From assembly GCF_021049285.1 (NCBI RefSeq), contig NZ_CP088017.1:310001-374000 (forward strand): a stretch of DNA of 64,000 nt, given 5' to 3'. Position numbers and translations under genes: made by a program. Source of the DNA: Ruania halotolerans (GTDB lineage Bacteria > Actinomycetota > Actinomycetes > Actinomycetales > Beutenbergiaceae). Of the stretch, positions 5,193-24,288 are shown one piece after another. Each line of letters starts with the position of its first letter. The stretch's first letter is position 1. The notes beneath the pieces are model-generated. The model was not told the origin of the DNA and did no database searches. It was given only the letters and a program-made list of their open reading frames with translations.

Positions 5193-5321
5193 GTGCGGTC
5201 CTTGTCCGTCGTCGGGGGATCGCGGCTGAACGCCACGATGTCGATAGGTGCGATATGGCCAGCCGTGTGCCAGAGTAGTGCTGCGAAACAACGTTGTCTA
5301 CCTGAACGAAGGAACCGCAGC
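5193..5321. promoter_or_regulatory. Divergent promoter region with LacI-type operator (core 5288-5297)
   Basis: This 129-nt region separates the minus-strand aldolase operon from the plus-strand kinase-isomerase gene. Positions 5284-5299 carry a near-palindrome whose perfect core is ACAACGTTGT (5288-5297). The stretch GAAACAACGTTGT is identical to the left 13 bases of the perfect palindrome at 8458-8479 upstream of the permease genes. A LacI-family regulator is encoded between the two sites. The simplest reading is that it controls both divergent operons through this site. The kinase gene has a clear ribosome binding site, GAAGGA, at 5308-5313. Confidence 0.7.
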
Positions 5322-7313: not shown

Positions 7314-7398
7314 CGGGGCGCGGACGCGCAACGGAACGGGCGGGTATGAAGCAGCGCTGATTGTAGGGTGTTGCCGACCTGCACCGAGGAGGCGCCCC

Positions 7399-8397: not shown

Positions 8398-8426
8398 CTC
8401 TGGCGATAGCTCTCGAGACGACATGG

Positions 8427-8455
8427 TTGTCAAGATGTCGAGAACCGGGTACCGT
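8427..8455 (+). promoter_or_regulatory. Candidate promoter of the first CUT1 transporter operon
   Basis: TTGTCA at 8427-8432, a 17-nt spacer and TACCGT at 8450-8455 resemble a sigma-70-type promoter with a good -35 and a moderate -10. The 22-bp operator begins 3 nt downstream, around the expected transcription start, a standard position for LacI-type repression. An additional weak inverted repeat (CGACAT at 8419-8424 / ATGTCG at 8435-8440) overlaps the -35. Confidence 0.5.
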
Positions 8456-8457
8456 TC

Positions 8458-8479
8458 CTCGAAACAACGTTGTTTCGAG
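8458..8479. promoter_or_regulatory. LacI-family operator, 22-bp perfect palindrome
   Basis: A perfect 22-bp palindrome with central AACGTT; the inner 16 bases read GAAACAACGTTGTTTC. The central CG dyad is typical of LacI-family operators. Its left half is repeated at 5285-5297 in the divergent promoter. It lies between the LacI gene and the permease genes, immediately downstream of the candidate promoter. Confidence 0.8.
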
Positions 8480-8520
8480 AGAGATGGGCGGTACGCCTTA
8501 CCGTGTTGATCGAAGCCCCC

Positions 8521-9468
8521 ATGCGGAAGCCGCGGCGGTCGCGAAGTCGTCCCCGTTCGCGGGCGGTGCGTAGTGACAAGAGCATCCTGATCCTGGCTGT
8601 GCCGGCCCTGGCGTTCTTTGCCGTGTTCAGCTACGGGCCCATGGTCGGTGTGATCGTGGCCTTCAAGGACTTCAGCATCGTCGACGGAATCATCGGCAGC
8701 CCTTGGAATGGCCTGGAGAACTTCCGCTTCTTCTTCGAATCCGGCAACGCCTCTCGGGTCGTGCGCAACACATTGATGTTGAACGCGCTCTTCATCGGCG
8801 GGACGCTCATCTCAGGCATGGCACTGGCGATCATGATCAACGAGGTTCGGCTGCGGCTTCTCAAGCGGACCGCCCAGTCCGTCGTCTTCCTGCCGTACTT
8901 CATTTCACCAATCGTCATCAGTGTGATGCTGCAGGCGTTCCTGTCCGGCTTCGGCGGCAGCGGCGGGATGGTCAACGGGCTACTGGACGGGTTCGGGATC
9001 TCACCCGTCTCCTGGTACACCGAGCCCGGTGCGTGGCCGTGGATCCTGACCGTCGTCAAGATCTGGCAGATGGCGGGCTACACATCGATCATCTATCTGG
9101 CAGCCATGACGGCGATCCCGACGGATGTCTATGAGGCAGCCGTCCTCGACGGTGCCTCGCGCTGGAAGATCGCTCTGCGCGTCACGATGCCTCTGATCCT
9201 GCCGGTGACCGTCATCCTGCTGGTCCTGCAAATCGGCCGGATCTTCATGGGTGACTTCGGCACGATCTACGCGATCATCGGCGACAACGGCACCCTGTTC
9301 GAGACCACGGATGTCATCGACACCTTCGTATTCCGTGCGCTGCGCACCAGCGGCGACCTCGGCATGACGGCAGCCGTCGGTCTCTTCCAGTCCGTCGTGG
9401 GCTTCGTCCTCATCGCTGCCACGGCCCTCATCGCACGTCGCATCAGCCGAAAGTCAGGAGGGTTGTGA
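8521..9468 (+). CDS. Carbohydrate ABC transporter permease (CUT1 family), first subunit
   Basis: 315 residues from the ATG at 8521; earlier alternatives are a GTG at 8503 and a TTG at 8470 that lies inside the operator and is unlikely. About six membrane segments are visible, the first after a basic N-terminus (residues about 20-45). The cytoplasmic EAA loop is clear (Y-E-A-A-V-L-D-G-A-S), where the ATPase docks. It pairs with the next permease, 4 nt downstream, and with the binding protein. No ATPase gene is present, so a shared MsiK/UgpC-type ATPase elsewhere is expected. Confidence 0.88.
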   Translation: MRKPRRSRSRPRSRAVRSDKSILILAVPALAFFAVFSYGPMVGVIVAFKDFSIVDGIIGSPWNGLENFRFFFESGNASRVVRNTLMLNALFIGGTLISGMALAIMINEVRLRLLKRTAQSVVFLPYFISPIVISVMLQAFLSGFGGSGGMVNGLLDGFGISPVSWYTEPGAWPWILTVVKIWQMAGYTSIIYLAAMTAIPTDVYEAAVLDGASRWKIALRVTMPLILPVTVILLVLQIGRIFMGDFGTIYAIIGDNGTLFETTDVIDTFVFRALRTSGDLGMTAAVGLFQSVVGFVLIAATALIARRISRKSGGL

Positions 9469-9472
9469 GCTC

Positions 9473-10423
9473 ATGACCGCCACTGCTACAAAGAACGCTT
9501 CCACGCCCGCCGCGCCCTCACCCGCGTCACCATCGTCGCGACGGGCTGGCCCCCTGCGGCGCGCCCTACGGGGCGATCCGTTCGTGGGAGTCAGCACCGT
9601 CGCCGTCACGGTGTACGCCTTGGCCTGCGTGATTCCGCTCTGGATCATTTTCGCCTCCTCCCTGACGGCGGAACGTACGTTGGTCCAAACGGGTTTCAGC
9701 CTGTGGCCCTCGGACTTCTCGCTCGAGGCCTACAAGGCCCTGTTCTCCGGGAACGACACTCTCATCAACGCCTATCTCGCCACGCTGGTCATCACCGTGG
9801 TCGGTACAGCGGGCGCCGTGATCGCCACGCTCGGGATGGGATGGGTCATTTCGCGCCGGACGGCGATGGCGCGACGGTTCATGGTCGTTGTGTACATCCC
9901 GATGCTGTTCAACGGCGGCCTGGTTCCGCTGTACATCCTGGTCACCCAAGTACTGCAACTGCGCAACACCTACTGGGCGGTCATCCTGCCCCTCCTCGTC
10001 TCACCGTTCCTGGTGTTCGTGGCGATGGCCTTCTTCCGGGACATCCCCGAGGCCGTGCTGGAGTCCGCACGGATTGACGGCGCCAATGAGCTTCGGGCGT
10101 TCGTCTCGATCGTGCTCCCGATCGCCACCCCGATCGTGGCGGTGATTGCGCTCTTCTACGCCGTGGCCTATTGGAACGAGTGGTTCTTCCCGCTGCTTTT
10201 CATCAACGATCCAGATCTACGACCACTTCAGCTTCTGCTGCAGAACATGATCGGCAATCTCAATGCAGCACAGGCGCTGCAGCCGACGGCGGGCGTCTCT
10301 GCGCCCGTCTATCAACTGAGGATGGCCCTGACCGTCGTGACCATCGGTCCGATCATCCTCGCCTATCCCTTCATCCAGCGCTTCTTCGTGACCGGGCTCA
10401 CGCTCGGTGCGACCAAGGGCTGA
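9473..10423 (+). CDS. Carbohydrate ABC transporter permease (CUT1 family), second subunit
   Basis: 316 residues with an N-terminal Ala/Thr/Pro/Ser-rich cytoplasmic tail of about 35 residues and about six membrane segments. The EAA loop reads L-E-S-A-R-I-D-G-A-N-E. The ATG at 9473 is preceded by GGAGGG at 9458-9463 inside the previous gene. The C-terminus ends in T-G-L-T-L-G-A-T-K-G, typical of this subunit type. Its TGA overlaps the next start (TGATG), indicating tight coupling with the binding-protein gene. Confidence 0.88.
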   Translation: MTATATKNASTPAAPSPASPSSRRAGPLRRALRGDPFVGVSTVAVTVYALACVIPLWIIFASSLTAERTLVQTGFSLWPSDFSLEAYKALFSGNDTLINAYLATLVITVVGTAGAVIATLGMGWVISRRTAMARRFMVVVYIPMLFNGGLVPLYILVTQVLQLRNTYWAVILPLLVSPFLVFVAMAFFRDIPEAVLESARIDGANELRAFVSIVLPIATPIVAVIALFYAVAYWNEWFFPLLFINDPDLRPLQLLLQNMIGNLNAAQALQPTAGVSAPVYQLRMALTVVTIGPIILAYPFIQRFFVTGLTLGATKG

Positions 10424-11991
10424 TGACGCTTCCCCTACAGATTGGAAGACCCGTGGTACACCCTCTCGCCTCATCCGTCAGCCGTCGCCGGATGCTCCAA
10501 GGCTCATTTGCGCTGGGTGGCGCCGGCCTGTTGGCCGCACTTGCCGGCTGCCAGTCCGGTTCCGGTGATAGCTCTTCCGGAGCCGCCACGCTGAAGTCAC
10601 TGCTACCGGGGGACGTCCCGCAGCGGTGGACAGAGGTGCTCGCTGCCGTCAACACCAAGCTCGAGGCCGATACTGGGCTGAGGCTGGATCCCGAGTTCAT
10701 CTCCTGGACGAACTACGCCGAGCAGGAGATGCTGAAGTTCACGACGCAGGAGCCGTTCGATTCGGCCCTCGAGGCGACGTGGCTCAACCTAGCCCAGCTC
10801 CTGTCCGACGGGGCGCTCGCGGACATGACCGAACTCTGGGAGAGCGGCCGGTTCGAGAACCTCAACGCCACGATCGACGAGCGCATGGTGGAGTACGCCA
10901 AGTACCAAGGGAGCCTCTACACGATCCCGCTGGTCGCGAACTTCACCAGTCCGCCCGGGTTCGTGATCCGTCAGGACTTGGCCGACAAGTACGGAATCGG
11001 TGAGATCACCGATTACGAGACACTCGAGAAGTTCCTCTACGACGTCAAGCAGAAGGATCCCGACCTCATTCCCTTCGGGCTCGACGCCGGATATGTGAAC
11101 AACACCGTTGTTCCGAACCCGGTCGCGCTGTTCAATGCGCAGTCCTGGGACGACCCGGCCAAGTGCGTCCAGCTGCTCGGCACTCACTTCGAAGGGTCCG
11201 ACCTGAGCCCGGTCCCGTTCTGGGAGCAGCCGGACATTGTCGAGTCGCTCGATCGCATGCGGCAGTACTACCTCGACGGCATCCTGAACGAGGATGCCCT
11301 CACGCTGGACATGAGCGCCGTCCGGAGTTTGTTCGCCCAGGGCCGCTATGCCTCGACCACTGCAGGTGCAGACGGCCTCACCAGCCCCACGTTCGGACCG
11401 GTGGCCGACAATGTCGACGGTGCGGCGATCGCCCAGGTGTTCCCGTTCACGGCCGGCTTGGACGCCGTCATCCCGGCGACGTTCCAAGCCGCGAACAACA
11501 TGGTCGTGCCCGCCTATGCCGAGACCCTGGAGGAGGTTTTCGAGATGATGGACTGGCTCTCTGTCCAGGAGAACCACGACCTGCTCTCGTACGGCATCGA
11601 GGGAGAGGATTGGGAGGCGACGGGCGAGCACTCCTACGAGCAGATCAGCGGCTATGCATTCCCCGCGTTCGCGATGTCATGGCGCACGCCGCTCGAGCGC
11701 GGGCTAGCCGGCGCGGTCGAGAGCGACCGCGCCTGGGTGGAGTGGACCCGCGACTTCGAGAACTTCAAGGCCGACCACCTCGCAGGCTTCTATTTCGACT
11801 CCTCCGCAGTGGCCTCGGAGCAGGCGCAAGTCAACGCAGTCTTCGACGAATACGTCCTTCCGCTGTACGCCGGTGTCAAGGACGTCCAGCCGGGACTCGA
11901 CGAAGCGCGCAGCGCGATGGAAGACGCCGGCTACGAGACAGTCGTCGAGGAGTACCGCCGCCAGGCCACCGAGTACCTTGCTGGCTCCTGA
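10423..11991 (+). CDS. Extracellular sugar-binding lipoprotein of the CUT1 transporter
   Basis: 522 residues from the ATG at 10423, which overlaps the permease stop; a GTG at 10453 with GGAAG upstream is an alternative. The N-terminus has a twin-arginine-like S-R-R-R-M motif, a hydrophobic stretch and a lipobox ending L-A-G-C, so it is exported and lipid-anchored. The rest is a large solute-binding protein rich in aromatic residues, of the longer (LipO/YtcQ-like) type commonly paired with this permease kind. Expected to capture an oligosaccharide for the two upstream permeases; the ligand is inferred to be mannosidic only from the neighbouring hydrolases. Confidence 0.87.
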   Translation: MTLPLQIGRPVVHPLASSVSRRRMLQGSFALGGAGLLAALAGCQSGSGDSSSGAATLKSLLPGDVPQRWTEVLAAVNTKLEADTGLRLDPEFISWTNYAEQEMLKFTTQEPFDSALEATWLNLAQLLSDGALADMTELWESGRFENLNATIDERMVEYAKYQGSLYTIPLVANFTSPPGFVIRQDLADKYGIGEITDYETLEKFLYDVKQKDPDLIPFGLDAGYVNNTVVPNPVALFNAQSWDDPAKCVQLLGTHFEGSDLSPVPFWEQPDIVESLDRMRQYYLDGILNEDALTLDMSAVRSLFAQGRYASTTAGADGLTSPTFGPVADNVDGAAIAQVFPFTAGLDAVIPATFQAANNMVVPAYAETLEEVFEMMDWLSVQENHDLLSYGIEGEDWEATGEHSYEQISGYAFPAFAMSWRTPLERGLAGAVESDRAWVEWTRDFENFKADHLAGFYFDSSAVASEQAQVNAVFDEYVLPLYAGVKDVQPGLDEARSAMEDAGYETVVEEYRRQATEYLAGS

Positions 11992-12031: not shown

Positions 12032-13981
12032 ATGATGCACAGCACGATCTGGCTCGACGGTGAGGACTGGACACTCCTCGGCTGGCGCCGCAACGACTGG
12101 GAGCTGGCGAGGACGCCGGCGGCGGACAAGGTGGCCAACCCGGACGTGGCCTCGGTGGCGATGCCGATCCCGGGCTCGGTCCGCGGCGCGTTGCTCAGCG
12201 CTGGAGTCATCACGGATCCGACGATTGGTCTGCAATCGCGCGACGCGGAGTGGGTGGAGCACCGCGACTGGGAGATCCGGCGGCAGTTGCCCGACCGGCT
12301 TCTCGGCGGCGACGGTGAGGCACAACTGTGGCTGCACTGTGCCGAACTCGACTATGCCGGGGCGGTCCTGCTCGGCGACCGGGAAGTCGGGAGATTCCAA
12401 GGCAGCTTCGTCCCCCACGAGTTCGATCTGACCGGGCCCTACGAGGACGGCGAACGGACGTTGCGGATTATTCTCACCGCTGCGCCGGACGGGCTGGCGC
12501 AGAACGGGTGGACCTCCCAGATCCGGGCATTCAAGCCGCGCTTCAGCTACGGCTGGGACTGGACTCCCCGGATGGTCTCGGCGGGAATCCCGGGCCGGGT
12601 CTGGCTCGAGCAGCGGCCACGGGACGGCGCGCGGCTTGTCGTCAGCGCTCGGGGTGACGTCGATGTCTCCCGTGATACGGCGGTCCTGGAGGTCGCGGCC
12701 CGTGCCGAGGGCTCCAGGGCCGCGGTGGGCGGTGCCACTGTCGAGGTGCTGCTCGACGGCAAGGTGGTCGGTGTGGGCCCGGCGTCCGCCCTCGATCTTC
12801 GGCTGGACGTGCCGGCCGAGCACTGGCAGCCGGCCGGCCGCGGTGGGCAACCGCTGTACGAGTGCCGGGTGCGCATGTTCGGCGCGGACGGCACGCTGCT
12901 CGACGAGGTCGTCCATCGCCTGGGCTTCCGGCACGTCTCGTGGTCACTGCCTGCGGGTGCCCCGGCCGGGGCCGACAGCTGGCTGTGCTCGGTGAACGGC
13001 ACACCCGTGTTCCTCGCCGGCGTCAACTGGGTGCCGATCCGACCGGACTACGCCGATGTCACCGAGGCCGACTACCGGCTCCGGCTGCAGCGGTATCGGG
13101 AGCTGGGGTTCGCGATGATCCGGGTATGGGGAGGGGCGGGCCTCGAACGCCCCATCTTCTATGACCTGTGCGACGAGCTGGGCCTACTGGTCTGGCAGGA
13201 GTTCCCGTTGTGCTCCTCTGGTCTGGACAACGAGCCACCGAGCGATCCGGAGTTCATCACCGAGCTGGTGAAGGTCGCTGAGAGCTACGTGCAGCACATC
13301 AGGCACCACCCGTGCCTCGCGCTGTGGGGCGGCGGCAACGAGCTGACCCGGGTGGACGAACCCGCCGTCCCTGGTGCACCGCTGACGAGTGACCACCCGA
13401 CCCTCGCGGCACTCCGCCGCGTGGTCGCCGCCGAGGATCCGATGCGCAGATACATCGCCACATCCCCGACCGGGCCCCGCTTCGAGGCTGACGCAGCCGA
13501 GTTCGGACTGGGCCTGCACCATGACGTACACGGTCCCTGGGAATTCACCGGGACCAAGGAGGAGTGGCAACAGTACTGGGACCACGACGATGCCCTGATG
13601 AGATCGGAGGTGGGCGTCGTCGGCGCATCGTCTGGGGACCTGCTGAAACGGCACGGGCTCCTCGAGGCGAGCTCGGGAGCAGAGCTGCGACAGCTGTGGA
13701 CACACACCTCCGGCTGGTGGCTGGCACCCCTCGACGCCTGGCTGGCGCGCGGGCACGAGCTGGCGGAACTACCGCACTGGATCGAGCAGAGCCGGGCGCG
13801 CCAGGCCGAGATGCTTGCCTATGCGGCGCAGCGCAGCAAGGACAGGTTCCCCCTATGCACCGGATTCTTCGTCTGGCTCGGCCATGACACCTTCCCTTGC
13901 GCCGTGAGTCTGTCGCTCCTCGACTATGACGGCGAGCCGAAGCCTGCCGCGCGCGCACTGGGTGAGGTCTTCACGGCCTGA
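12032..13981 (+). CDS. Glycoside hydrolase family 2, beta-mannosidase-like
   Basis: 649 residues, on the short side for beta-mannosidases, which usually run to 800 or more, so a C-terminal accessory domain is probably absent. The N-terminal galactose-binding-like domain (F-S-Y-G-W-D-W-T near residue 172, typical of beta-mannosidases) is followed by an immunoglobulin-like domain and a TIM barrel. The acid/base is Glu437 in G-G-G-N-E-L, and the nucleophile candidate is Glu526 in R-S-E-V-G. No signal peptide, so cytoplasmic. It would remove beta-linked mannose from imported oligosaccharides, complementing the GH38 protein on the opposite strand. Two adjacent ATGs (12032, 12035) are possible starts. 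Confidence 0.88.
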   Translation: MMHSTIWLDGEDWTLLGWRRNDWELARTPAADKVANPDVASVAMPIPGSVRGALLSAGVITDPTIGLQSRDAEWVEHRDWEIRRQLPDRLLGGDGEAQLWLHCAELDYAGAVLLGDREVGRFQGSFVPHEFDLTGPYEDGERTLRIILTAAPDGLAQNGWTSQIRAFKPRFSYGWDWTPRMVSAGIPGRVWLEQRPRDGARLVVSARGDVDVSRDTAVLEVAARAEGSRAAVGGATVEVLLDGKVVGVGPASALDLRLDVPAEHWQPAGRGGQPLYECRVRMFGADGTLLDEVVHRLGFRHVSWSLPAGAPAGADSWLCSVNGTPVFLAGVNWVPIRPDYADVTEADYRLRLQRYRELGFAMIRVWGGAGLERPIFYDLCDELGLLVWQEFPLCSSGLDNEPPSDPEFITELVKVAESYVQHIRHHPCLALWGGGNELTRVDEPAVPGAPLTSDHPTLAALRRVVAAEDPMRRYIATSPTGPRFEADAAEFGLGLHHDVHGPWEFTGTKEEWQQYWDHDDALMRSEVGVVGASSGDLLKRHGLLEASSGAELRQLWTHTSGWWLAPLDAWLARGHELAELPHWIEQSRARQAEMLAYAAQRSKDRFPLCTGFFVWLGHDTFPCAVSLSLLDYDGEPKPAARALGEVFTA

Positions 13982-14081
13982 GTCAGCGGCCCCCACGCAT
14001 TCCTCGTGCCCAGCGGCCCCGGTCGTACGGCCAGTCGCTCAGGGCCCACCGATCGGTATGACCGCACCAAGGAGATTTCGT

Positions 14082-16571
14082 ATGGACCACCAACTCGCCG
14101 ACGCTCCGGCCGCCAGAACGCTGCGACAGACCGGGCCTGACCAGCAGCGCTCGCTGAGCGTGCCCAACAGTCGGATCGTGCTCAACCCACAGAACTTCTT
14201 TGCCGAGGCCAGCGAGGTCGAGCAGAACTGTGCTCCGTCTCTGCCGCTTGGACTCGGGTACTACGCTCACGACCAGGCGTTGTTCCTCTCCCGGTTCCTC
14301 ACGCTGTGGGCCGTGCCGCGCGCACCGACGTCTCCCGCGCCTGCGTGCGAGCGTCTCGACGCTGCGCACTGGAGTGCGGGCCCGGACATCCGGCTGCACG
14401 CGGACGGCACCGTACTCGAGGCAGCGATCGCGGCAGAGCGCACACACAGCGGGTCGATTCGGCGGCGAATCCGGGTCGATCCCGCGCGCCCGATCCTGCG
14501 GGTGGGGATCGGATCTGTGCATGGCCAATGGGCGCTGCGCCTGCGCAACGATGCGGGCCGCACCATCCACGTGCAGGACGGTGCGGCCACGGTCGGCCTG
14601 CACCGCTACGACCTCGCCGCGCTTCTCGGCGAAACGGATGGCTGCGATGCGGAGCTGATCCTGGAACTCCTCAGCGCCGGGGCATCAGTGCGGGTCGAGG
14701 AGATGACGCTGGTCCCGGAGCGCCATGAATCCACCGCGGGGGCGCGGCAGTTCAGCACCGACTGGTCGCCGGGCGGCCTGGGGTTCGCGGCCGTGTATCC
14801 GGGCGGGGGAGCACTGCACGGCAACGACGTTTTCGCCGGCGAGCACAGCGTGCTCCGCGAGGTCACCCTCGACCATCCCCTGGGTGAGAGCGCCACGCTC
14901 GTGGTGGCCGGTGAGTACGTCGGTGGCGTCGAACTCGACCATGCAGCTGGTGTGGTCCGGTTGCGCGCCCCGCACGCGCACCTGGCCATCACCGTCCCGA
15001 ACGGATCGCAGATCCGCTACTACGCCGACGAGACGGAACTGCAGGCCGGTGGGCCGGGCTTGGCCGAACCGCGCACGAGGACCGGGCTGTGGGCGGTCAC
15101 CATCGCGCCGGACCTCCAGTCGTTCCGCCTCGGTTGCGGCTTCTCGCCCACTGACCCCGACGAGGCAGTGCAAGCGGCCACGACTGCTGCCACGTACTCC
15201 GCCGACGAGCGTGCCGAGCACTGGCACTCATTCTGGGACGGCGTGCTCGCGCGGGTGCCGCACCCGCACTCGTTCTCGCTGCTTGGCGTCCCCGACGACG
15301 AGGGAGTGGGTCCGCAGGATGTACGGGCGGCCTACTACCGAGCCTTCCTCGGGCTGTACGCGAATGTGTTGCCGGCGCAGCCGGAGAGTGGGTACCACCA
15401 CCCCACCGTGGCCACCGGCAAAGGGTCGATGTGGAACTACGGCGCGCCGGGCGCACGCACCGCCGCCGCCTGGGAGACGTTCCTGGCCATCCAGTTCCTT
15501 GCCTACCTTGACCCGGAGGTGGCCTGGGCGTCGTTCCACGGGTTGATGACGCTCGTTGTCGAGGACGGCTCACTCGCCGGGGAGGGTCTGCCCAGCCGCA
15601 AGGCCCAGACGGCGTGGATCCTGTTCTCGCTCACCGGAGACCGCGAAGCGCTCGCCGCCCACTACCCGGCGCTGCGCCGACTGCTGCACTGGCAGGCCAA
15701 GCACCCGCGGTGGGTCTACGGCGACTACGACTACCTCGGCGAACAGGACGCGGAGTTCATGACCTCGGCGGTGATCGATCTCGGGTTCGCCCAGCAGATC
15801 GCTGCAGTGCTCGAAGACGATGCCGACATGGCGAGATACGAGGAACGACGGACCGCACTGCTTGCCGATTATGCGGCGCACTGCTTCCGGGGCGAGGAAC
15901 GCGCGGCGGTCCAGCACTGGTTCCCGGATGACCCGACCTGCGGACCGCGTGGGGGCTGCGAGGGACTCGGGCTCCAGGTGGCGATGGGCTTGGCGATCGA
16001 CGGCCTGCCGGACTGGCAGCGCGCATCGTTGCTCGCCCGGTTCGACGCCCAGTTCGATCCACACGATCAGCTCGGGGGCTTCGACGTCGTCAAACACTCC
16101 AACCTCGGGTACACCGTGGATGGGCTGATGCTCAGCGGCAGATGGGAGCAGGCCCAGACGCTGGCGAACATCGCTCTCCGGGACGTGCTGCGGAGCGGCT
16201 CTTTCGCCGAGGTGTACGACCGGGGCGTGCACGGGCCCCGGCCTGGTGGCGTGCGACCTTCGATCTTCGGCATGACCCAGGTCATCGACACGGTCTGGTT
16301 GAACAATGGATTCCGGATGGACGGCGGGGCGCCCCAGGTCGTCGGATTTCCGGACGTGCGTGGCGGGCTCGACGGTGTGCGTGGGGGATCGCGCACCTGG
16401 CAGGTGGAGGTAGACGTTCCCCGCGGTGGTGCGTGCCTCACCGACGCCACCACGGGGCAGCGACAAGAAGTCGCCCTCCCCACGGGATCCAGCGTTCCCA
16501 TCACTGCCAGCAGCCATCACGACGCGGCGATACCTGCGCCGCGCACACCGACCCCCGCTGCCCACGAGTAG
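14082..16571 (+). CDS. Unclassified (alpha/alpha)6-barrel glycosidase-like protein
   Basis: 829 residues from the ATG at 14082, which has AAGGAG about 7 nt upstream. The first half is beta-rich (about residues 20-350) with no motif I can name. The second half is helical with repeated aromatic and acidic residues (W-N-Y-G-A-P, E-G-L-P-S-R-K, Y-D-Y-L-G-E-Q-D-A-E-F, G-G-C-E-G-L-G), resembling six-hairpin glycosidases such as GH63, GH37 or GH78 relatives. I cannot assign a family. No signal peptide. It lies between the GH2 gene and another barrel protein 13 nt downstream, so a role in degrading the same glycan is likely, but the reaction is unknown. Confidence 0.7.
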   Translation: MDHQLADAPAARTLRQTGPDQQRSLSVPNSRIVLNPQNFFAEASEVEQNCAPSLPLGLGYYAHDQALFLSRFLTLWAVPRAPTSPAPACERLDAAHWSAGPDIRLHADGTVLEAAIAAERTHSGSIRRRIRVDPARPILRVGIGSVHGQWALRLRNDAGRTIHVQDGAATVGLHRYDLAALLGETDGCDAELILELLSAGASVRVEEMTLVPERHESTAGARQFSTDWSPGGLGFAAVYPGGGALHGNDVFAGEHSVLREVTLDHPLGESATLVVAGEYVGGVELDHAAGVVRLRAPHAHLAITVPNGSQIRYYADETELQAGGPGLAEPRTRTGLWAVTIAPDLQSFRLGCGFSPTDPDEAVQAATTAATYSADERAEHWHSFWDGVLARVPHPHSFSLLGVPDDEGVGPQDVRAAYYRAFLGLYANVLPAQPESGYHHPTVATGKGSMWNYGAPGARTAAAWETFLAIQFLAYLDPEVAWASFHGLMTLVVEDGSLAGEGLPSRKAQTAWILFSLTGDREALAAHYPALRRLLHWQAKHPRWVYGDYDYLGEQDAEFMTSAVIDLGFAQQIAAVLEDDADMARYEERRTALLADYAAHCFRGEERAAVQHWFPDDPTCGPRGGCEGLGLQVAMGLAIDGLPDWQRASLLARFDAQFDPHDQLGGFDVVKHSNLGYTVDGLMLSGRWEQAQTLANIALRDVLRSGSFAEVYDRGVHGPRPGGVRPSIFGMTQVIDTVWLNNGFRMDGGAPQVVGFPDVRGGLDGVRGGSRTWQVEVDVPRGGACLTDATTGQRQEVALPTGSSVPITASSHHDAAIPAPRTPTPAAHE

Positions 16572-16584
16572 GACTCAGCCGACC

Positions 16585-18033
16585 ATGACCCTCACCGATG
16601 CGGACGTTGCCGCGATCGAGACTGCCATGTCCACCGGAGCACCCACCGGCCCGGTCGCACCACCCCGGCGCGTGCTGCCCACGTTGACGGGCTCGGCCGA
16701 CGGCATCGGGCGACTCTACGAGGCAGCGCTGCACAACGTGTTCGTGGTGAACACCCTGCGCGACGAGAAGGGCCCGTTCGTGCGGGCTGGCGGCGGCTAC
16801 CCCACGCCGTGGACGCGCGATGCGGCGATCAACTCATGGAGTGCGCTCTCACTACTCGCGCCCGGACTGGCCGAAGCGACGTTGCGAGCGGTGACCGAGT
16901 CCACCGCAGCCGGTCCGATCGTGGCGCAGGACGACCAGTGGTGGGATCAGGCAATCTGGGTGCTGGCGGCACAGCGCCACGCCTCGCTCACCGGGGATCG
17001 TGAGTTCGCCCACTGGGCGTACCAGGTGGGGCAGAACACCCTGGAGACGCTGGAGCAGTACCTCGATCCTCGATGGAATCTGTACACCGGACCTGCCGTG
17101 ATGCAGGACGGGGTGGCGGGCTTTCCCCTGCCAGACGGCGCGGAGGAGTCCACGGCGTTCGTGCTCGATTACCCCTGGGCGCGCTCACTCATGTGCTTGT
17201 CCACGAACCTGGTCTACGCCGCCGCCTTCGACTCACTCGCCGCCCTCGGGGACCTTATCGGCGTGCCCGCAGGGGCTGCGCGGGCCCGCGCCGACGTCGT
17301 CCGCGCAGCTATCGAGACCCACCTGTGGACTGGACAGGACTATGCGTACTTGCGGCATACCGACGGCCAGCTCGAGCACTATCAAGAACTCCTAGGTCTG
17401 GCGCTAGCGCTTGAGCACGGCGGTGTGGACGACGCTCGTGTGGATGCCGTCGTCAACGGCCTGCACCGCTCGCGACACGGAATCGCACTGGTGTGGCCGC
17501 ATTTCACTCGGTACAGCGATGAACGACCGGGACGTCACAACGTCGCTCTGTGGCCGATGGCCATGGGGCAGTGGGCGGTCGCAGCAGCACGCCGTGGCCA
17601 GGCCGCGGCATTCAGTGAGTCTTGGCACGACCTCTGCCGACTGGTCGAAGGCTCCGGAGATGAGTTCTACGAGCTCTACGCCGCCACCGACGGGTCTGTG
17701 CACGGCGGTTGGCAGATCGGCCGGCTCTGGGCATCCGAGCCGCACCAGACCTGGAGTGCGACGGCGTTCCTGCGGATGGTCCATGAGGGCGTGCTCGGGA
17801 TCCGGGTGAGCGAGGGTGCACTGCACCTCGCGCCGACGCTGCCTGAGGGGGTCGAGCACGTCACCCTGCGGAACCTGCAGCTCGGGCATGCACGCCTGAC
17901 GATCGAGGTGGCGGGCTGCGGCAACCGGGTGAGCCAGGCCAGTCTGGACGGAGTGACGCTGGGCAATCCGAACCAGCCGATCGCGCTCGCCGCTCTCAGC
18001 GGTGAGCACACCCTTCGGGTGCAGGTGCGCTAG
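16585..18033 (+). CDS. Second six-hairpin glycosidase-like protein
   Basis: 482 residues from the ATG at 16585. It is almost wholly an (alpha/alpha)6-type barrel followed by a short beta-rich tail (from about residue 405). Notable acidic/aromatic clusters are P-W-T-R-D-A-A-I-N-S-W near residue 72, Q-D-D-Q-W-W-D-Q near 113 and V-H-G-G-W-Q near 372. The first resembles the W-x-R-D motif of GH63/amylo-1,6-glucosidase-like enzymes. The catalytic residues are not certain. It is the last gene of the plus-strand run, and its stop overlaps tail-to-tail with the next minus-strand gene. Probably an exo-glycosidase of the same pathway; specificity unknown. Confidence 0.68.
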   Translation: MTLTDADVAAIETAMSTGAPTGPVAPPRRVLPTLTGSADGIGRLYEAALHNVFVVNTLRDEKGPFVRAGGGYPTPWTRDAAINSWSALSLLAPGLAEATLRAVTESTAAGPIVAQDDQWWDQAIWVLAAQRHASLTGDREFAHWAYQVGQNTLETLEQYLDPRWNLYTGPAVMQDGVAGFPLPDGAEESTAFVLDYPWARSLMCLSTNLVYAAAFDSLAALGDLIGVPAGAARARADVVRAAIETHLWTGQDYAYLRHTDGQLEHYQELLGLALALEHGGVDDARVDAVVNGLHRSRHGIALVWPHFTRYSDERPGRHNVALWPMAMGQWAVAAARRGQAAAFSESWHDLCRLVEGSGDEFYELYAATDGSVHGGWQIGRLWASEPHQTWSATAFLRMVHEGVLGIRVSEGALHLAPTLPEGVEHVTLRNLQLGHARLTIEVAGCGNRVSQASLDGVTLGNPNQPIALAALSGEHTLRVQVR

Positions 18034-18449
18034 TCCGAGCCGAGGAACCAGCTGCGGTTCTGCCACAGGAGGCCACTTCCCACCCCGATCCACAGGATCG
18101 AGATGATCACCTGCGGCCCACTGAGCCCATAGACCACCAGGAGCACACAGCCGAACATGTAGATGCCCCCTAGCCCGAGCAGCCCGACCATTGCACGCCG
18201 CCGCCTCCGGAGCACACCGATCGAGAACGCGATGGCCGCCGCTGCGGCCACCAGGATCACCCCGCCGAGGAGGGGCACCACCGAGGTGCTTCGCGCGCCG
18301 AGCACGGCGAGTTCGTCCGGCGCCACACTGCCCAATGCCAGAAAGCCCGCACCCACCATGGTCATCAGAATCGAGCCGAGGATCGTCATGGCCACTGCTG
18401 CGGTCACGCCGCCCGGGCGGCGTTTCGAGTCGCGGCCGGCCCGCGTCAT
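18030..18449 (-). CDS. Small four-helix membrane protein of unknown function
   Basis: 139 residues. A basic N-terminus (R-R-P-G-G-V-T-A-A) leads into about four hydrophobic segments, ending in L-L-W-Q-N-R-S-W-F. The same beginning and end motifs occur in the protein at 27646-28254, so the two are paralogues. Function is not known. Its start overlaps the stop of the ROK regulator by 4 nt, so they are cotranscribed; its stop shares bases with the convergent glycosidase-like gene. Confidence 0.75.
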   Translation of the reverse strand: MTRAGRDSKRRPGGVTAAVAMTILGSILMTMVGAGFLALGSVAPDELAVLGARSTSVVPLLGGVILVAAAAAIAFSIGVLRRRRRAMVGLLGLGGIYMFGCVLLVVYGLSGPQVIISILWIGVGSGLLWQNRSWFLGSD

Positions 18450-19696
18450 TCTCTGCCCGCCAACCTCTCGGTTGTCGCGATGGCGTCGTTCTCCGTGTCT
18501 TGTTCAAGACCCAGAGGTGCGGCGAGGTAGCCATCCAGCGCGAGCGCGGCCGACGCCCTCGGCCACGTCTCCGGTCCGAATCGTGCATGGCGGTGCACCT
18601 GTGGAGCGCGACCGGTGAGTTCGGTGTGCCGACGACGGACCATGTCCAAGCACTCATCGATTTCTTCCTGCGTGCCGAGTGGACCGCTGATCACGGTTTG
18701 ATCGGGTTGCAGGAGACTGATGAGCAACGGTATGACCATCCCGAGTGCACGAGCCCGATCGCGGCGGAGAGTCTGAAGGCCGGAGGGGTGCCCGGGCGGG
18801 CGGGCGGATGTGTCCCACATGCCGTCCTCGGCGGGATACAGGTGGTGCTGTGACGCGTCTGTCGGCAGCAGGCCGGCCTCGATGGCCTGAGTCAGCAGGG
18901 CGTCGTCGGTGCATGTCACGCGCACGCAACCGACTTGTCCGCAGTTGCATGGTGCACTCGAACCGGGAACGACCAAGTGGGAAACCACACCGCCACCAGT
19001 GGGACCTTCCAGGATGAGGCGGTCACCCTGCATCTGTGCGATGCGCATGGAGCGGCCGACGAGGATGCTCAGCACGTTGCCGTCGTACCCATCCCACCAG
19101 TGCTGATCGAGCGCCAGCGCTTGGACGTTGGAGTCCACTCGGATCGGCAAGTCGATTCGAGCGCGGAGACTGTCCAGCAAGTCGGCGTGGTCCACGTCGA
19201 CGACCTGCTGGGGTCGTGGCCCGGCCCAGAACTCGTCCCAGGGCTTCGAAACACCGATTCCCACGACGGTATTCGTATCGAACTCGTCGACGACGCCACC
19301 GATGAGTCGAGTGACCTCGTTGATCCGCTCCTGTGAGGTACGTGCTGACGTTGCCAGGGAACGGTAGAGCACCTGCTCTCCGCGCAGCGTGTAGACACCG
19401 CACGAGGTGTGTGCGGGGTGCAGGTGCGCACCGAGCAGTAGACGACCTTGCCGCGGCACGTCGATCGGGATCGTTGGTCGTCCGGCCGAGTGGCGCGGCC
19501 GGGTCTGCGGGCACTCTTCCAGGTCGCCCCGCTCGAGAAGCTCAGACACGAGTTTGGTGATGGTGGTGAAGCTCGCACCGGTGGAGGTGGCCAGCTCCTT
19601 TCTGCCGAGCGGACCTTCGGCGAGAAGGGCGCGGATGATCGCGCGTGCCGTCGAGTTGCGCTGACGGAGCATCAACTGCGTCGACGTACTGGCCAT
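18446..19696 (-). CDS. ROK family transcriptional regulator
   Basis: 416 residues from the ATG at 19696. The N-terminal winged helix (about residues 15-70: R-A-I-I-R-A-L-L-A, then R-K-E-L-A-T-S-T-G) is followed by a ROK sugar-kinase-like domain. The ROK zinc motif is visible as C-N-C-G-Q-V-G-C. The glycine-rich ATP loops of true kinases are not obvious, which fits a regulator rather than a kinase. It diverges from the binding protein of the second CUT1 system and most likely regulates it in response to a sugar. An in-frame upstream ATG at 19771 is less likely because it runs into the shared promoter. Confidence 0.9.
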   Translation of the reverse strand: MASTSTQLMLRQRNSTARAIIRALLAEGPLGRKELATSTGASFTTITKLVSELLERGDLEECPQTRPRHSAGRPTIPIDVPRQGRLLLGAHLHPAHTSCGVYTLRGEQVLYRSLATSARTSQERINEVTRLIGGVVDEFDTNTVVGIGVSKPWDEFWAGPRPQQVVDVDHADLLDSLRARIDLPIRVDSNVQALALDQHWWDGYDGNVLSILVGRSMRIAQMQGDRLILEGPTGGGVVSHLVVPGSSAPCNCGQVGCVRVTCTDDALLTQAIEAGLLPTDASQHHLYPAEDGMWDTSARPPGHPSGLQTLRRDRARALGMVIPLLISLLQPDQTVISGPLGTQEEIDECLDMVRRRHTELTGRAPQVHRHARFGPETWPRASAALALDGYLAAPLGLEQDTENDAIATTERLAGRE

Positions 19697-19840
19697 CCAG
19701 CCGAGTATATGGGGCCGATGACGATCGGAGCTCAGGCGGAGCGATAGCTCAAAGGCATTAATCACATGCATTTGACAAATAGTGATCCAGCCGCAAACAT
19801 GGCGATCACGTCACGACCAGAAGCATTCGAAGGAGAAGCA
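19697..19840. promoter_or_regulatory. Divergent promoter region of the ROK/CUT1-sulfatase cluster
   Basis: Contains a perfect -35 hexamer TTGACA (19772-19777) for the plus-strand operon with a weak -10 (AAACAT at 19795-19800). It is flanked by an inverted repeat ATCAC (19761-19765) / GTGAT (19782-19786) that brackets the -35 and may be the ROK operator. The binding-protein gene has a strong ribosome site, AGGAGAA, at 19831-19837. The operator assignment is a guess from position and symmetry. Confidence 0.45.
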
Positions 19841-21154
19841 ATGGATCGCCACGCACACTTGGGCCCGTCACGACGGCAAGCCTTCGGACTCGCCGGCCTG
19901 GCCGCGCTCTCAGCCTCGGCATGTAGTCGCGGTGGGAGTTCCGCCCCCGGTGGGGGCTCCGCCCCAGATGCCGACACCGCATCGCTGCGATACGCGTGGT
20001 GGGGTGACGACCTGCGCACTGAGCTCACTCAGGAGGCGCTCGCGGCGTTCGAGACGGAGTACTCCTCGATCGACGTACGAGGCGAGTTCAGTGGGTTCGA
20101 TGGGTATTTCGACAAGCTCGCCACCCAGACAGCCGGGGGCGGCGGAGCCGATGTCTTCATGATGAACGAGTGGAACCTCCGTGAGTACGCTGACCGTGGC
20201 TCTCTGGCTGATCTCACCGGCGTCAGCACCCAGAACTGGAGCGATGGTGCCGCCGAAGGGGGGCAGGTCGATGGGAAACTCTTCGGAGCGACGGCCGGTA
20301 TCGGCCTGCAGGCAGTGCTCGTGGACCCGGAGTTCTTCGAGGACGCGGGTGTGGAGATGCCCGACGATACGACGTGGACCTGGGAGGACTTCCGCGAGAT
20401 CGGTCGCGCGCTCACCGACGGTTCCGCGGACGGATCATTTGGCGTGACCTACCAGGCGGGTGACCAAATCACTGCGAACTTCTACTGCGCGCAGCACGGT
20501 GCCCCCGTCTTCGACGAAGCCGGCGTCGGTGTCGCGGTAGATCAGGTGCGCGCTTGGTACGAGATGTGGTTACTCCTCGTGAAGGAGGAGATCGCACCCT
20601 CGGCTTCGGCGGCGCTCGAGGACGGTTCGGCCGGGATCGAGCAGTCGCTATTCGCTCAGGGGCAGCTGGGCATGCTGTTCATCCCGACGAACTACCTCAC
20701 CGTGTACGAGGACCTGATGCAGCGGGAGCTGCGGCTGTTGCGGATCCCCACCCGGACCGGCCGCCCTGCGGATCTCGGGATGTGGTTCCGGCCGGCTCAG
20801 CTCTACTGCGTCTCGGCCACCTCGGACCGCCAGGAGGATGCCACCACACTGGTCGACTTTCTTATCAACAGCACCCAGGCGGGAGAGATCCTTCTCGCCG
20901 ACCGGGGTGCTCCTCCGAACAGTGAGGTACGTGGAGCCATCGTGGATCTCGTCTCGGGAGCAGACGCCCGTGTGTTCGAGTACATGGATTCGTGCGAGCC
21001 CGATCTGTCCGCACCACCGCCGCCTCCTCCGGCCGGCGCCGGCGCCTACCCCGGCATCCTCGGTCGTCACGGGGAGGACGTGCTCTTCGAGCGCGTCACG
21101 CCCGAAGCCGGTGCGCAGGCCTTCCTCGACGCCCTGACGGCGGAGCTGGCGTGA
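19841..21154 (+). CDS. Extracellular sugar-binding lipoprotein, second CUT1 system
   Basis: 437 residues from the ATG at 19841, preceded by AGGAGAA. The signal has a twin-arginine-like start (S-R-R-Q-A-F) and a lipobox ending S-A-S-A-C. The mature part is a family 1 solute-binding protein; it starts with L-R-Y-A-W-W-G and contains the W-T-W-E-D-F motif usual for these proteins. A run of seven prolines occurs near residue 394. The following sulfatase start overlaps its stop by 4 nt (GTGA), so uptake and desulfation are coupled. The ligand is probably a sulfated sugar or its desulfated product. Confidence 0.88.
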   Translation: MDRHAHLGPSRRQAFGLAGLAALSASACSRGGSSAPGGGSAPDADTASLRYAWWGDDLRTELTQEALAAFETEYSSIDVRGEFSGFDGYFDKLATQTAGGGGADVFMMNEWNLREYADRGSLADLTGVSTQNWSDGAAEGGQVDGKLFGATAGIGLQAVLVDPEFFEDAGVEMPDDTTWTWEDFREIGRALTDGSADGSFGVTYQAGDQITANFYCAQHGAPVFDEAGVGVAVDQVRAWYEMWLLLVKEEIAPSASAALEDGSAGIEQSLFAQGQLGMLFIPTNYLTVYEDLMQRELRLLRIPTRTGRPADLGMWFRPAQLYCVSATSDRQEDATTLVDFLINSTQAGEILLADRGAPPNSEVRGAIVDLVSGADARVFEYMDSCEPDLSAPPPPPPAGAGAYPGILGRHGEDVLFERVTPEAGAQAFLDALTAELA

Positions 21155-22443
21155 CATCGGCCGACCGCCCCAACGTCGTCATCATTCACTGGCACGATCT
21201 CGGAACCTATCTCTCGGCCTATGGCTACCGAGTGGACACTCCGCACACCGAGGCGCTGGCCCGAGAATCGACCCTCTTCACCCGATGCTTCAGCACCAGC
21301 CCGCTGTGTAGCCCTGCGAGAGGTTCGCTCTGGACCGGCCGATACCCCCACAGCAACGGATTGCAGGGTCTGACCCATCGCGGCTGGGAGTTCAACGACG
21401 GCGAGCGAACCCTGCCTATGTACCTGGCCGACGAGGGCTACCGCACGGCGCTGGCCGGTCTCCAGCACGAGTCGAGTGATCCGACCAGACTGGGTTTTGA
21501 GGAGGTTCTCGGCCCGGATCAGGCGTGGGCCCAGGACGTTGGGTCAGTGGCCTCGGCCTGGCTCGACGCACAGGACCGGCAGGCCGACCCTTTCCTGCTC
21601 GTCTGCGGCATGGTTGAAGCGCATCGCGACTGGCCCGAGGACCGCTATCCGCCGACCATCCCGCCCGATCAGGTGGACGTCCCTTCCTACTTGCCGGACA
21701 ACGAGCACACCCGACGCGACCTGGCAGCCTTCGCCTCCGCCATCCACGCCGCTGACCAAGGGGTCGGGCTCATCCTCGACGCTCTTGCTCGCAACGATCT
21801 CGACCGCAACTCGATCGTCATCTTCACCACCGACCACGGGGCCCCGTTCCCAGGCGCGAAGAGCACGCTGCACGATCCGGGTGTCCACGTCGCTCTCATG
21901 GTCAGGCTGCCCCCGATATGGCGGGGTGACGGTCCGCGGACGGAAAACGGACTGGTGAGCCATGTCGATCTGGTTCCGACGATCCTGGAGCTGTTGGAGA
22001 TTCCGGTGCCCGATCACGTCCAGGGCCAAAGCGTCGCGCGCTCTCTCAGCGATGGCACCCCGCCAGAGCGCCAGGAGGTCTATCTGGAAAAGACCTATCA
22101 CAGCGACTACGACCCAGTGCGCGCAGTGCGGACCGACTCCTTCAAGTACATCCGAAGCTTCGAGGAGCGTTCTATCCTTGCGCTGCCACCCGATCTTGAG
22201 GATTCGCGGACGCGGCAGGGGATGGGAGACGAACACCTCGCAGTGAGGCCGCGTGAGGAGCTCTACGATCTCCGGTCGGATCCCCATGAAATCGCGAATG
22301 TGGTCGACGAGCCCGCACACCTCAGCACCGCTAACATGCTCCGGCAGCGTCTGGATGAGTTTATGGCCACCACGGACGACGCGCTGCTCCATGGGCCTAT
22401 CCGGCCGCCAGAGCGGGTTCCGGGCAGGAATAGGTCGCGATGA
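21151..22443 (+). CDS. Type I (formylglycine-dependent) sulfatase
   Basis: 430 residues from the GTG at 21151. The sulfatase signature C-S-P-A-R-G at Cys53 is the site converted to formylglycine by a modifying enzyme not present in this window. The active-site T-T-D-H-G motif appears near residue 229. No signal peptide is visible, so it acts in the cytoplasm on an imported sulfated sugar. It sits inside a CUT1 transporter operon between binding protein and permeases, an unusual internal position. Start and stop both overlap neighbours by 4 nt. Confidence 0.9.
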   Translation: MTSADRPNVVIIHWHDLGTYLSAYGYRVDTPHTEALARESTLFTRCFSTSPLCSPARGSLWTGRYPHSNGLQGLTHRGWEFNDGERTLPMYLADEGYRTALAGLQHESSDPTRLGFEEVLGPDQAWAQDVGSVASAWLDAQDRQADPFLLVCGMVEAHRDWPEDRYPPTIPPDQVDVPSYLPDNEHTRRDLAAFASAIHAADQGVGLILDALARNDLDRNSIVIFTTDHGAPFPGAKSTLHDPGVHVALMVRLPPIWRGDGPRTENGLVSHVDLVPTILELLEIPVPDHVQGQSVARSLSDGTPPERQEVYLEKTYHSDYDPVRAVRTDSFKYIRSFEERSILALPPDLEDSRTRQGMGDEHLAVRPREELYDLRSDPHEIANVVDEPAHLSTANMLRQRLDEFMATTDDALLHGPIRPPERVPGRNRSR

Positions 22444-23399
22444 GTGCGATTTCTGAGCTGTCCAAGCTGGGTGGGGGCCGTAAGGCTCTCACTCCGCAGG
22501 AGCGGGCGGCGCGGCGTAAGGAGAATGGGCGCGATAACAGGGCTGGGTACCTGTTCTTGTTGCCGTGGCTGGTGGGGTTGTTCGTTTTCACCCTGGGGCC
22601 GATGTTGGCGTCGTTGTATTTGTCCTTGACTGATTACGCGTTGCTGCAGCCGCCGAATTTCCTGGGCTTGGATAACTGGCAGGCGATGGTGACCGATTCG
22701 CGGTTGCATCAGTCGTTGAAGGTCACGTTCATCTACGTGTTCGTGGGTGTGCCGTTGCAGTTGGCGCTGGCTCTGGGTGTGGCGATGCTGCTCGATAAGG
22801 GCATGCGCGGGCTGGCGTTCTACCGGTCGGTGTTCTATCTGCCCTCGATGCTGGGCTCCTCGGTCGCGATCGCGTTGCTGTGGCGCCAGATCTTCGGCAC
22901 CACCGGCCTGGTGAACCAGATCCTGCAGCTGCTGGGGGTAGAGGCGAACACCGGATACGTCTCGGATCCCGATACCGCGTTATGGACGCTGATCCTGTTG
23001 AACGTGTGGACCTTCGGTTCCCCGATGGTGATCTTCCTCGCCGGGCTGCGTCAGATCCCGGTGATGTACTACGAGGCCTCGTCCCTGGACGGGGCCGGAC
23101 GCTGGCGCAAGTTCACCCAGATCACGATGCCGCTGCTATCGCCGATCGTGTTCTTCAACCTGGTCCTGCAGATCATCAACGCGTTCCAGTCCTTTACCCA
23201 GGCGTTCGTGGTCTCCAACGGCACCGGCGGACCTTCGGACTCGACCCTGTTCTACACCCTCTACCTCTACGAACAGGGCTTCACCCGGTTCAACATGGGA
23301 TACGCCTCCGCGATGGGATGGCTGCTACTGCTGATCATCGCCACCTTCACCGCGATCAACTTCTTCGCCTCCAAATACTGGGTGTTCTACGATGACTGA
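22440..23399 (+). CDS. Carbohydrate ABC transporter permease (CUT1, UgpA/MalF-like)
   Basis: 319 residues. A basic N-terminus (A-A-R-R-K-E) precedes about six membrane segments, and the EAA loop reads Y-Y-E-A-S-S-L-D-G-A-G. The ATG at 22440 overlaps the sulfatase stop. The first 120 or so codons use TTG and GTG heavily, unlike its neighbours, while the end of the gene is C-rich; this composition shift is discussed as a finding. It pairs with the next permease, which it overlaps by 8 nt. Confidence 0.92.
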   Translation: MSAISELSKLGGGRKALTPQERAARRKENGRDNRAGYLFLLPWLVGLFVFTLGPMLASLYLSLTDYALLQPPNFLGLDNWQAMVTDSRLHQSLKVTFIYVFVGVPLQLALALGVAMLLDKGMRGLAFYRSVFYLPSMLGSSVAIALLWRQIFGTTGLVNQILQLLGVEANTGYVSDPDTALWTLILLNVWTFGSPMVIFLAGLRQIPVMYYEASSLDGAGRWRKFTQITMPLLSPIVFFNLVLQIINAFQSFTQAFVVSNGTGGPSDSTLFYTLYLYEQGFTRFNMGYASAMGWLLLLIIATFTAINFFASKYWVFYDD

Positions 23400-24288
23400 G
23401 ACCCGCACGCACATCTCCGGCGGTATCGACACCGCAACGTCCAAACGCGAGGGCGGGCCCGCCACCCTGGCACGCAGTCTGGGTAAGCATGCAGTGCTGA
23501 TCGGCGCGACCCTGCTGATGATCTACCCACTGCTATGGATGATCGTCAGCTCCCTGCGCCCCACCGAGGTCATCTTCCGCACCCCCGGGCTATGGGTTAA
23601 CGAGCTCTACCTGGAGAACTACACCGAAGGCTGGTTCGCCCTAGCCCACCCCTTCGACTACTACCTGGTCAACTCCGCCATCGTCGTCGGTGGAGCGATC
23701 CTGGGGAACCTGATCTCCTGCTCCCTCGCCGCCTACGCCTTCGCCCGACTGAAATTCCGCGGACGCGGCATCTGGTTCGCGATCATGCTCATGACGATCA
23801 TGCTGCCCTTCCACGTCGTCGTGGTCCCCCAGTACATCCTGTTCAACAGCTTCGACATGGTGAACACATTCCTGCCCCTGGTCCTACCAAAATTCCTCGC
23901 CACCGACGCATTCTTCGTCTTCCTCATGGTCCAGTTCATCCGCGGCATCCCCAAAGACCTCGACGAAGCAGCCCGCATCGACGGCGCCGGCCACCCACGC
24001 ATCTTCGGTCAAGTCCTCATCCCCCTGATGATCCCCGCACTAGCAACCACAGCCATCTTCACCTTCATCTGGATGTGGAGCGACTTCTTCACCTCCCTGA
24101 TCTACCTCACCTCCCCCGACATGTACACCGTCCCCGTCGCCCTGAAATCCTTCCTCGACGCCACCTCCGGCTCCAACTGGGGAGCCATGTTCGCCATGTC
24201 CATCGTCTCCCTGATCCCCATGTTCCTCGCCTTCATGCTCGGACAGAAATACCTCGTCAAAGGCATCGCCACCACCGGAGGCAAATAG
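23392..24288 (+). CDS. Carbohydrate ABC transporter permease (CUT1, UgpE/MalG-like)
   Basis: 298 residues with about six membrane segments and EAA loop D-E-A-A-R-I-D-G-A-G. The start at 23392 lies inside the previous gene (8-nt overlap). The coding strand is strikingly rich in C at third positions, more so than surrounding genes. Last gene of the sulfatase-linked CUT1 operon; no ATPase gene is included, so a shared ATPase is expected. Confidence 0.92.
   Translation: MTETRTHISGGIDTATSKREGGPATLARSLGKHAVLIGATLLMIYPLLWMIVSSLRPTEVIFRTPGLWVNELYLENYTEGWFALAHPFDYYLVNSAIVVGGAILGNLISCSLAAYAFARLKFRGRGIWFAIMLMTIMLPFHVVVVPQYILFNSFDMVNTFLPLVLPKFLATDAFFVFLMVQFIRGIPKDLDEAARIDGAGHPRIFGQVLIPLMIPALATTAIFTFIWMWSDFFTSLIYLTSPDMYTVPVALKSFLDATSGSNWGAMFAMSIVSLIPMFLAFMLGQKYLVKGIATTGGK

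Follow-up and report, generated by a model that had tools for sequence, protein, structure and literature searches.

Among the families of the six-hairpin glycosidase superfamily, the general acid is known not to keep one fixed position. The described systems closest to the locus reported here are the GH63-type mannosylglycerate/glucosylglycerate hydrolases (MGH; Pfam MGH1-like_GH, PF22422), the GH78 alpha-L-rhamnosidases (catalytic domain, PF17389), the GH94 disaccharide phosphorylases, and the GH121 beta-L-arabinobiosidase HypBA2. We analyzed a 64,000-nucleotide stretch of DNA (hereafter designated the window), positions 310001-374000 of the single-contig 4.27 Mb genome of Ruania halotolerans (NZ_CP088017.1), in which two adjacent genes, P0001 and P0002, encode proteins that we compared with these systems:

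14082-16571, plus strand: P0001, 829 residues without a visible signal peptide, six-hairpin glycosidase-like, of an apparently unclassified family; N-terminal region ~1-380 with a conserved QQR-S-P-SR-LNP start, catalytic region ~382-760; candidate residues E435, E465, D556, and E710
16585-18033, plus strand: P0002, a predicted six-hairpin glycosidase of 482 residues; its family is MGH1/GH63-like and remote, and its C-terminal beta domain resembles GH65C/GH94; candidate residues D79, D175, and E363

We propose tentatively, as an idea that comes close to probable without quite reaching it, that P0001 founds a new six-hairpin glycoside hydrolase family, which would act on a glycan that contains mannose and is possibly acetylated, through matched copies anchored at the surface and located in the cytoplasm, would have a residue set of its own (E435/E465/D556/E710), and would occur in few actinobacteria and haloarchaea.

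Comparison of P0001 with the six-hairpin families

Neither P0001 nor P0002 passes any curated Pfam or NCBIfam cut-off; NCBIfam gave no match to either protein up to an E value of 1, and single-sequence searches of the PDB with each found nothing credible. Among the papers listed in literature searches, none plainly describes either family, and we know of no characterised member of the P0001 family. For comparison at the family level, 16 P0001-family sequences were aligned (A4), and their catalytic part was taken as a second alignment (A5), a fragment (L054) being excluded from both. When the 16 catalytic regions were scanned one by one with Pfam, Bac_rhamnosid6H matched 13 of them (best E 1.2e-7) and MGH1-like_GH matched 8, the sole other family appearing as one match at E 0.32. 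Profile comparison of the P0001 family with GH78 (23 sequences kept of 27, selected by the acid motif D-E-R-x-G-W-x-x-D) gave 96.1% (E 3.3e-9), versus 0.2% for each of the reversed and shuffled controls, and the comparison with the P0002 family gave 77.3% (E 2e-5; controls, 0.0 and 0.2%). In the PDB, the A5 profile matched GH78 6i60 (E 0.0026) and GH63 YgjK (E 0.042), and in the YgjK alignments E465 of P0001 falls on D324 of YgjK, beside an invariant tryptophan. Judged from the Pfam member scans and the controlled profile comparisons, the six-hairpin kinship of P0001 and P0002 thus appears to be beyond chance.

Three acids of the P0001 family, E435, D566, and E710, are invariant in 16/16 sequences, and E501 and D556 are kept in 15/16; position 465 is Glu in 11 members and Asp in 5. 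E710 lies in SFAEVYD, which resembles the MGH base motif FAEYYD, and a glutamate at the base position is found in all 16 sequences, as read through a weak alignment with MGH (5.1%). The acid may be D556, which in chain order corresponds to the GH63/GH37 acid, or E435, which lies in the loop region of the GH78 acid. The GH63 motif YWRG occurs in 0/16 members, and G-x-D-x-S-P in 1/16 (L051, wherever in the protein). One relative (L050, from genome G681) carries N, S, Q, and L at the otherwise conserved positions 556, 558, 501, and 507, respectively, and is perhaps altered or inactive.

Membership of P0001 in GH121 was also considered. HypBA2 is a multidomain protein anchored at the surface, in which a barrel carries acids in an E-D-E set (PMC7263609); the acid set and the surface anchoring resemble those of the P0001 family, and one relative in that family (L053) likewise has F5/8 type C domains. 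The acids and the anchoring are suggestive, but the profile similarity between P0001 and GH121 was 0.2%, that is, at the level of the controls and not above it, and the GH121 motif GNDADAVSF is absent from the P0001-family alignment; membership was rejected. The GH121-like sequences for this comparison were found by a DNA pattern in 15/396 genomes of the order, and of these 12 loci were compared, with one motif context common to all. The GH121 family is described as mostly bifidobacterial; one GH121-like protein, in which GNDADAVSF is present, comes from the genome of P0001 itself, where its gene lies to the right of the window (L132, genome base 389205).

By the Pfam and NCBIfam cut-offs and by direct comparison with GH78, GH63-type MGH, and GH121, P0001 looks like a member of an unclassified family. 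Alternatively, P0001 and P0002 could be ordinary members of listed CAZy families that lack Pfam and NCBIfam models. Relatives of P0002 are indeed not rare in actinobacteria (20 loci), but a haloarchaeal homologue of P0001 is recorded as a hypothetical protein, and none of the three families compared directly took in P0001; we regard such a membership as possible, though on the unlikely side.

Improbable, in our judgment, is that P0001 is a distant alpha-L-rhamnosidase of GH78-like function, in a locus for a rhamnose-containing glycan. GH78 does provide both the closest profile to P0001 and its closest sequence match in the PDB (6i60), and the haloarchaeal relatives lie near a GH78 gene; against this, the GH78 acid motif D-E-R-x-G-W-x-x-D was found in 0/16 members of the P0001 family, the locus contains genes for mannosidases and ManA, and none of the scanned proteins was recognised as part of a rhamnose pathway.

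Predicted fold and family of P0002

P0002 was aligned with 18 of the 20 relatives found in one genome-collection scan (alignment A3), all 20 of which are actinobacterial; a relative with a frame break (L028) and a partial one (L029) were excluded. Weak matches in G306, G463, and G500, and an additional match in G336, were kept out of the family, and the two of these that were scanned (L065 and L066) are GH78-type proteins. The AlphaFold model of P0002 made with A3 has a predicted local distance difference test score (pLDDT) of 90.5 and a predicted template-modelling score of 0.90, and shows a C-terminal beta domain in addition to the barrel. Its best fold matches were the amylo-1,6-glucosidase 7vma (Z 34.8, root-mean-square deviation (rmsd) 3.2 over 392 residues), GH94 8bou (Z 34.2, rmsd 2.7 over 408), GH63 YgjK 5ca3 (Z 33.4, rmsd 2.8 over 350), the GH63 mannosylglycerate hydrolase 4wva (Z 33.2, rmsd 2.9 over 333), and GH37 2wyn (Z 33.1, rmsd 2.7 over 335), where Z values differing by 1 or less count as tied. 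Among the matches listed (Z 30-35, rmsd 2.6-4.4, 322-426 residues aligned) were GH94, GH63, GH37, invertases, GH116, rhamnosidases, and an archaeal amylo-1,6-glucosidase, families not in this list not being thereby excluded. The predicted structure firmly places P0002 among the six-hairpin (alpha/alpha)6 glycosidases. The six-hairpin character that the preliminary description of this DNA had read from the residues of both proteins is borne out for P0002 by its predicted fold and supported for P0001 by the sequence profiles (13/16 members; GH78, 96.1%), and of the families that it had named for a fold comparison, GH63 and GH37 were among the matches listed for P0002, as were rhamnosidases.

With P0002 itself, Pfam listed a sub-threshold GH65 C-terminal domain alone (E 0.0034), without Bac_rhamnosid6H and without an MGH1-like_GH match up to E 1. 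When all 19 members were scanned (E up to 0.1), MGH1-like_GH matched 16 (best E 4.2e-19), and GH65C and Bac_rhamnosid6H matched 15 each. Profile comparison of A3 with GH63-type MGH sequences (10/10 kept) gave 96.4% (E 1.1e-9). The P0002 family is also related to GH78 (74%, and 97.6% against a pair of GH78 proteins), but differs from it in lacking the DER-GW acid motif (0/19).

Three acids, D79, D175, and E363, are invariant in 19/19 sequences of the P0002 family. In the alignment with MGH, D79 falls on the aspartate of WSWD, which belongs to subsite -1, and E363 falls on the glutamate of FAEYYD, which is the base; all members of the family accordingly have a glutamate in a motif that resembles FAEYYD and precedes the last helices. 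Alanine variants of MhGgH at D43 (substrate binding) and E419 (catalytic) were inactive (PMC6608630), and these residues sit in the WSWD and FAEYYD motifs, respectively, as far as the motifs can be identified from the primers printed there. P0002 shares with the GH63-type MGH the six-hairpin fold and the positions of these two residues; unlike them, its family lacks the GH63 motifs G-x-D-x-S-P (acid) and YWRG (0/19 each), has the motifs QDDQWWDQ and R-x-x-RHN-like instead, and has the added C-terminal beta domain. The general acid is likely to be D175. From the alignments and the model, the mode of action of P0002 is probably similar to that of the GH63-type enzymes, from which its family differs in the acid and YWRG motifs. 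Within the GH63-like MGH1 group, the P0002 family forms a remote arm that has its own motifs. Of the earlier suggestion that both proteins represent new or remote families, what stands is that neither reaches a curated cut-off; P0002 proved less of an orphan, with MGH1-like_GH in 16/19 members and a clear fold, and P0001 is the truly unplaced one of the two, a candidate for a new family.

A further alternative is that P0002 is a GH94-like phosphorylase, not a hydrolase, yielding an intracellular sugar phosphate. The barrel with a C-terminal beta domain is the arrangement of the GH94 disaccharide phosphorylases, which are also its top matches in Foldseek (1v7v, E 6.1e-18) with the beta domain aligned too, and P0002 has no visible signal peptide. 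Pfam Glyco_hydro_94, on the other hand, matches 2/19 members of the family only, and the invariant E363, whose counterpart in the GH63-type MGH is the hydrolase base of FAEYYD, occupies the place where GH94 binds phosphate (PMC7263609); we consider a phosphorylase quite improbable. It is very unlikely that one or both proteins are catalytically dead and serve in sugar binding or regulation: the classical GH63 or GH78 acid motif is absent from both, but several acids are invariant across 16 and 19 diverse sequences, including the 30% identical haloarchaeal ones.

Paralogues, distribution, and gene neighbourhood

Two paralogues of P0001 stand in tandem immediately to the left of the window (L030:8843-12334 and 12451-15717; genome 302.8-306.3 and 306.4-309.7 kb); they are 42-43% identical to P0001 and have signal-peptide-like starts and LADTG sorting ends. 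Two other genomes of the genus (G322 and G393) each have one P0001 and two surface forms in the same layout, and all six surface paralogues (two in each of the three genomes) end in LADTG and a hydrophobic stretch. Because the paralogues bear signal peptides and LADTG anchors, the P0001 family has both surface and cytoplasmic forms. The front parts of the two tandem paralogues are near-identical, which looks like a recent duplication.

Beyond the genus, the P0001 family is rare: it was found in 7/396 genomes of the order, including its own genome and the two of the genus, and in its own genome only in samples of the class (394 genomes, with alignment A2 as the query) and the phylum (296). Among 72,556 plasmid records, two held the family, both from the archaeon Halomontanus rarus, with 30% identity over 90-93%; these homologues (L031 and L033) are annotated as hypothetical protein and lie between beta-helix (GH28-like) and beta-galactosidase genes. 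No relative of P0001 was found in 50,697 phage records or in viral contigs. Of eight sampled genomes of the genus, three have P0001, and the identical three have P0002. A fixed pair of the two was considered and rejected: none of the 20 P0002 loci holds P0001, and P0002 was not found in the seven stretches outside the genus that contain relatives of P0001 (L031, L033, and L050-L054). Most likely, two families have been recruited into one locus, and they do not form a two-part system.

The genes around P0001 and P0002 are as follows:

1-780, minus strand: AXE1 acetyl xylan esterase-like, clipped by the window edge, the entire gene being seen in L030
793-3165, minus strand: GH38 alpha-mannosidase-like, 790 residues
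3181-4353, minus strand: Gfo/Idh/MocA oxidoreductase
4350-5291, minus strand: DeoC/LacD-type aldolase
5319-7313, plus strand: single-frame fusion of a PfkB sugar kinase and a mannose-6-phosphate isomerase-like (ManA) domain, ManA at ~6396-7313; start picked by eye within the open reading frame 5121-7313
7399-8397, plus strand: LacI-type regulator, start taken from the open reading frame of a sister genome
8470-9468, plus strand: ATP-binding cassette (ABC) transporter permease, assigned from sequence appearance only
9473-10423, plus strand: ABC transporter permease, assigned from sequence appearance only
10423-11991, plus strand: ABC solute-binding protein with a DUF3502 C-terminus; start picked by eye within the open reading frame 10171-11991
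12032-13981, plus strand: P0003, GH2 beta-mannosidase-like, 649 residues, motifs GGNE and SEVG

As the preliminary description had it, the 829- and 482-residue genes are adjacent and in line with the GH2 gene: P0003 ends 100 bases upstream of P0001, and 13 bases separate P0001 from P0002, all on the plus strand. The closest solved structures to P0003 are beta-mannosidases (best PDB match 5n6u, E 5.9e-49), and its motifs GGNE around 436 and SEVG at 525 contain both NE and SE, which we take to be the catalytic glutamates of GH2 beta-mannosidase. The 829-residue start of P0001 is likelier than a longer frame from 13926, because the ribosome-site-like AAGGAGAT immediately precedes the ATG at 14082 and the G322 orthologue has the identical start. 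Both frames are genuine genes, since orthologues in the two sister genomes G322 and G393 (93 and 76% identity for P0001, 81 and 81% for P0002) keep the gene order. In these two genomes, P0002 is directly followed by a homologue, judged from its start sequence, of the flavin adenine dinucleotide (FAD)/iron-sulfur oxidoreductase found here at 24449-27313. The block 18030-24288, comprising a ROK regulator, a solute-binding protein and permeases (a second ABC system), and a sulfatase, is likely an insertion, because both sister genomes are without it at that place.

Proposed sugar route and its bearing on the families

From the neighbourhood (GH38, GH2, and the PfkB-ManA fusion), we infer that the substrate would be mannose-containing oligosaccharides. 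Among 30 loci searched, a GH38 gene was found near a P0002 homologue in four (L020, L027, L028, and L064), all among the 22 actinobacterial P0002-type loci; L020 and L028 are both from Curtobacterium, so that this neighbourhood occurs in three lineages. In L027, the GH38 gene (5041-8022) overlaps the P0002 homologue (8001-9377) head to tail. A ManA gene also lies near the P0001 homologue of G530. The case for mannose is drawn from the GH38 genes near P0002 homologues and from the ManA parts here and in G530. The preliminary suggestion that P0001 and P0002 act on one glycan is consistent with the neighbourhood (GH38, GH2, and ManA), the two families not having been found together outside the genus.

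Presumably, P0001 and P0002 both act in the cytoplasm as exo-glycosidases with a six-hairpin (alpha/alpha)6 barrel, each of a different kind, within a locus for the use of a mannose glycan. The surface-anchored paralogues of P0001 would make the initial cuts outside the cell, the ABC importer would bring the resulting oligosaccharides in, and P0001, P0002, and the GH2 and GH38 enzymes would trim them, after which the PfkB-ManA fusion would hand mannose on to fructose 6-phosphate. Catalysis would most likely be inverting: E710 of P0001 and E363 of P0002, close to the final helices of the barrel, would supply the carboxylate base, and the carboxylate acid would be D175 in P0002 and either D556 or E435 in P0001. 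This proposal as a whole, from the first cuts at the surface to inversion by the cytoplasmic enzymes, we consider rather probable.

Several observations weigh against it. For the kinship of P0001, its own Pfam match is a sub-threshold Bac_rhamnosid6H alone (E 0.0073; 16.1 bits versus a cut-off of 24.5), the profile comparison of its family with MGH is weak (5.1%), and the model of its catalytic region, built without relatives, is unusable (pLDDT 38.1). For catalysis, the general acid is unsettled in both proteins: L050 has Asn in place of D556 of P0001, and D175 of P0002 lies three columns off the MGH acid in the alignment. For the substrate, 18 of the 22 P0002-type loci are without GH38 in the stretch examined, and the P0001 relatives of haloarchaea have GH28-like, GH78, and mannonate dehydratase genes as neighbours instead of mannosidase genes, which suggests another sugar in those organisms; the link with mannose may be no more than local.

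If the proposed route is true, the setting of P0001, in which one copy is cytoplasmic and two are surface-anchored, together with mannosidases and a kinase-isomerase fusion, makes its substrate testable. The P0002 family would be separable from the GH63 enzymes that it resembles, as an actinobacterial family with a distant relative now named amylo-alpha-1,6-glucosidase, and the six-hairpin superfamily would gain, with the P0001 family, a further arm that extends to haloarchaea.

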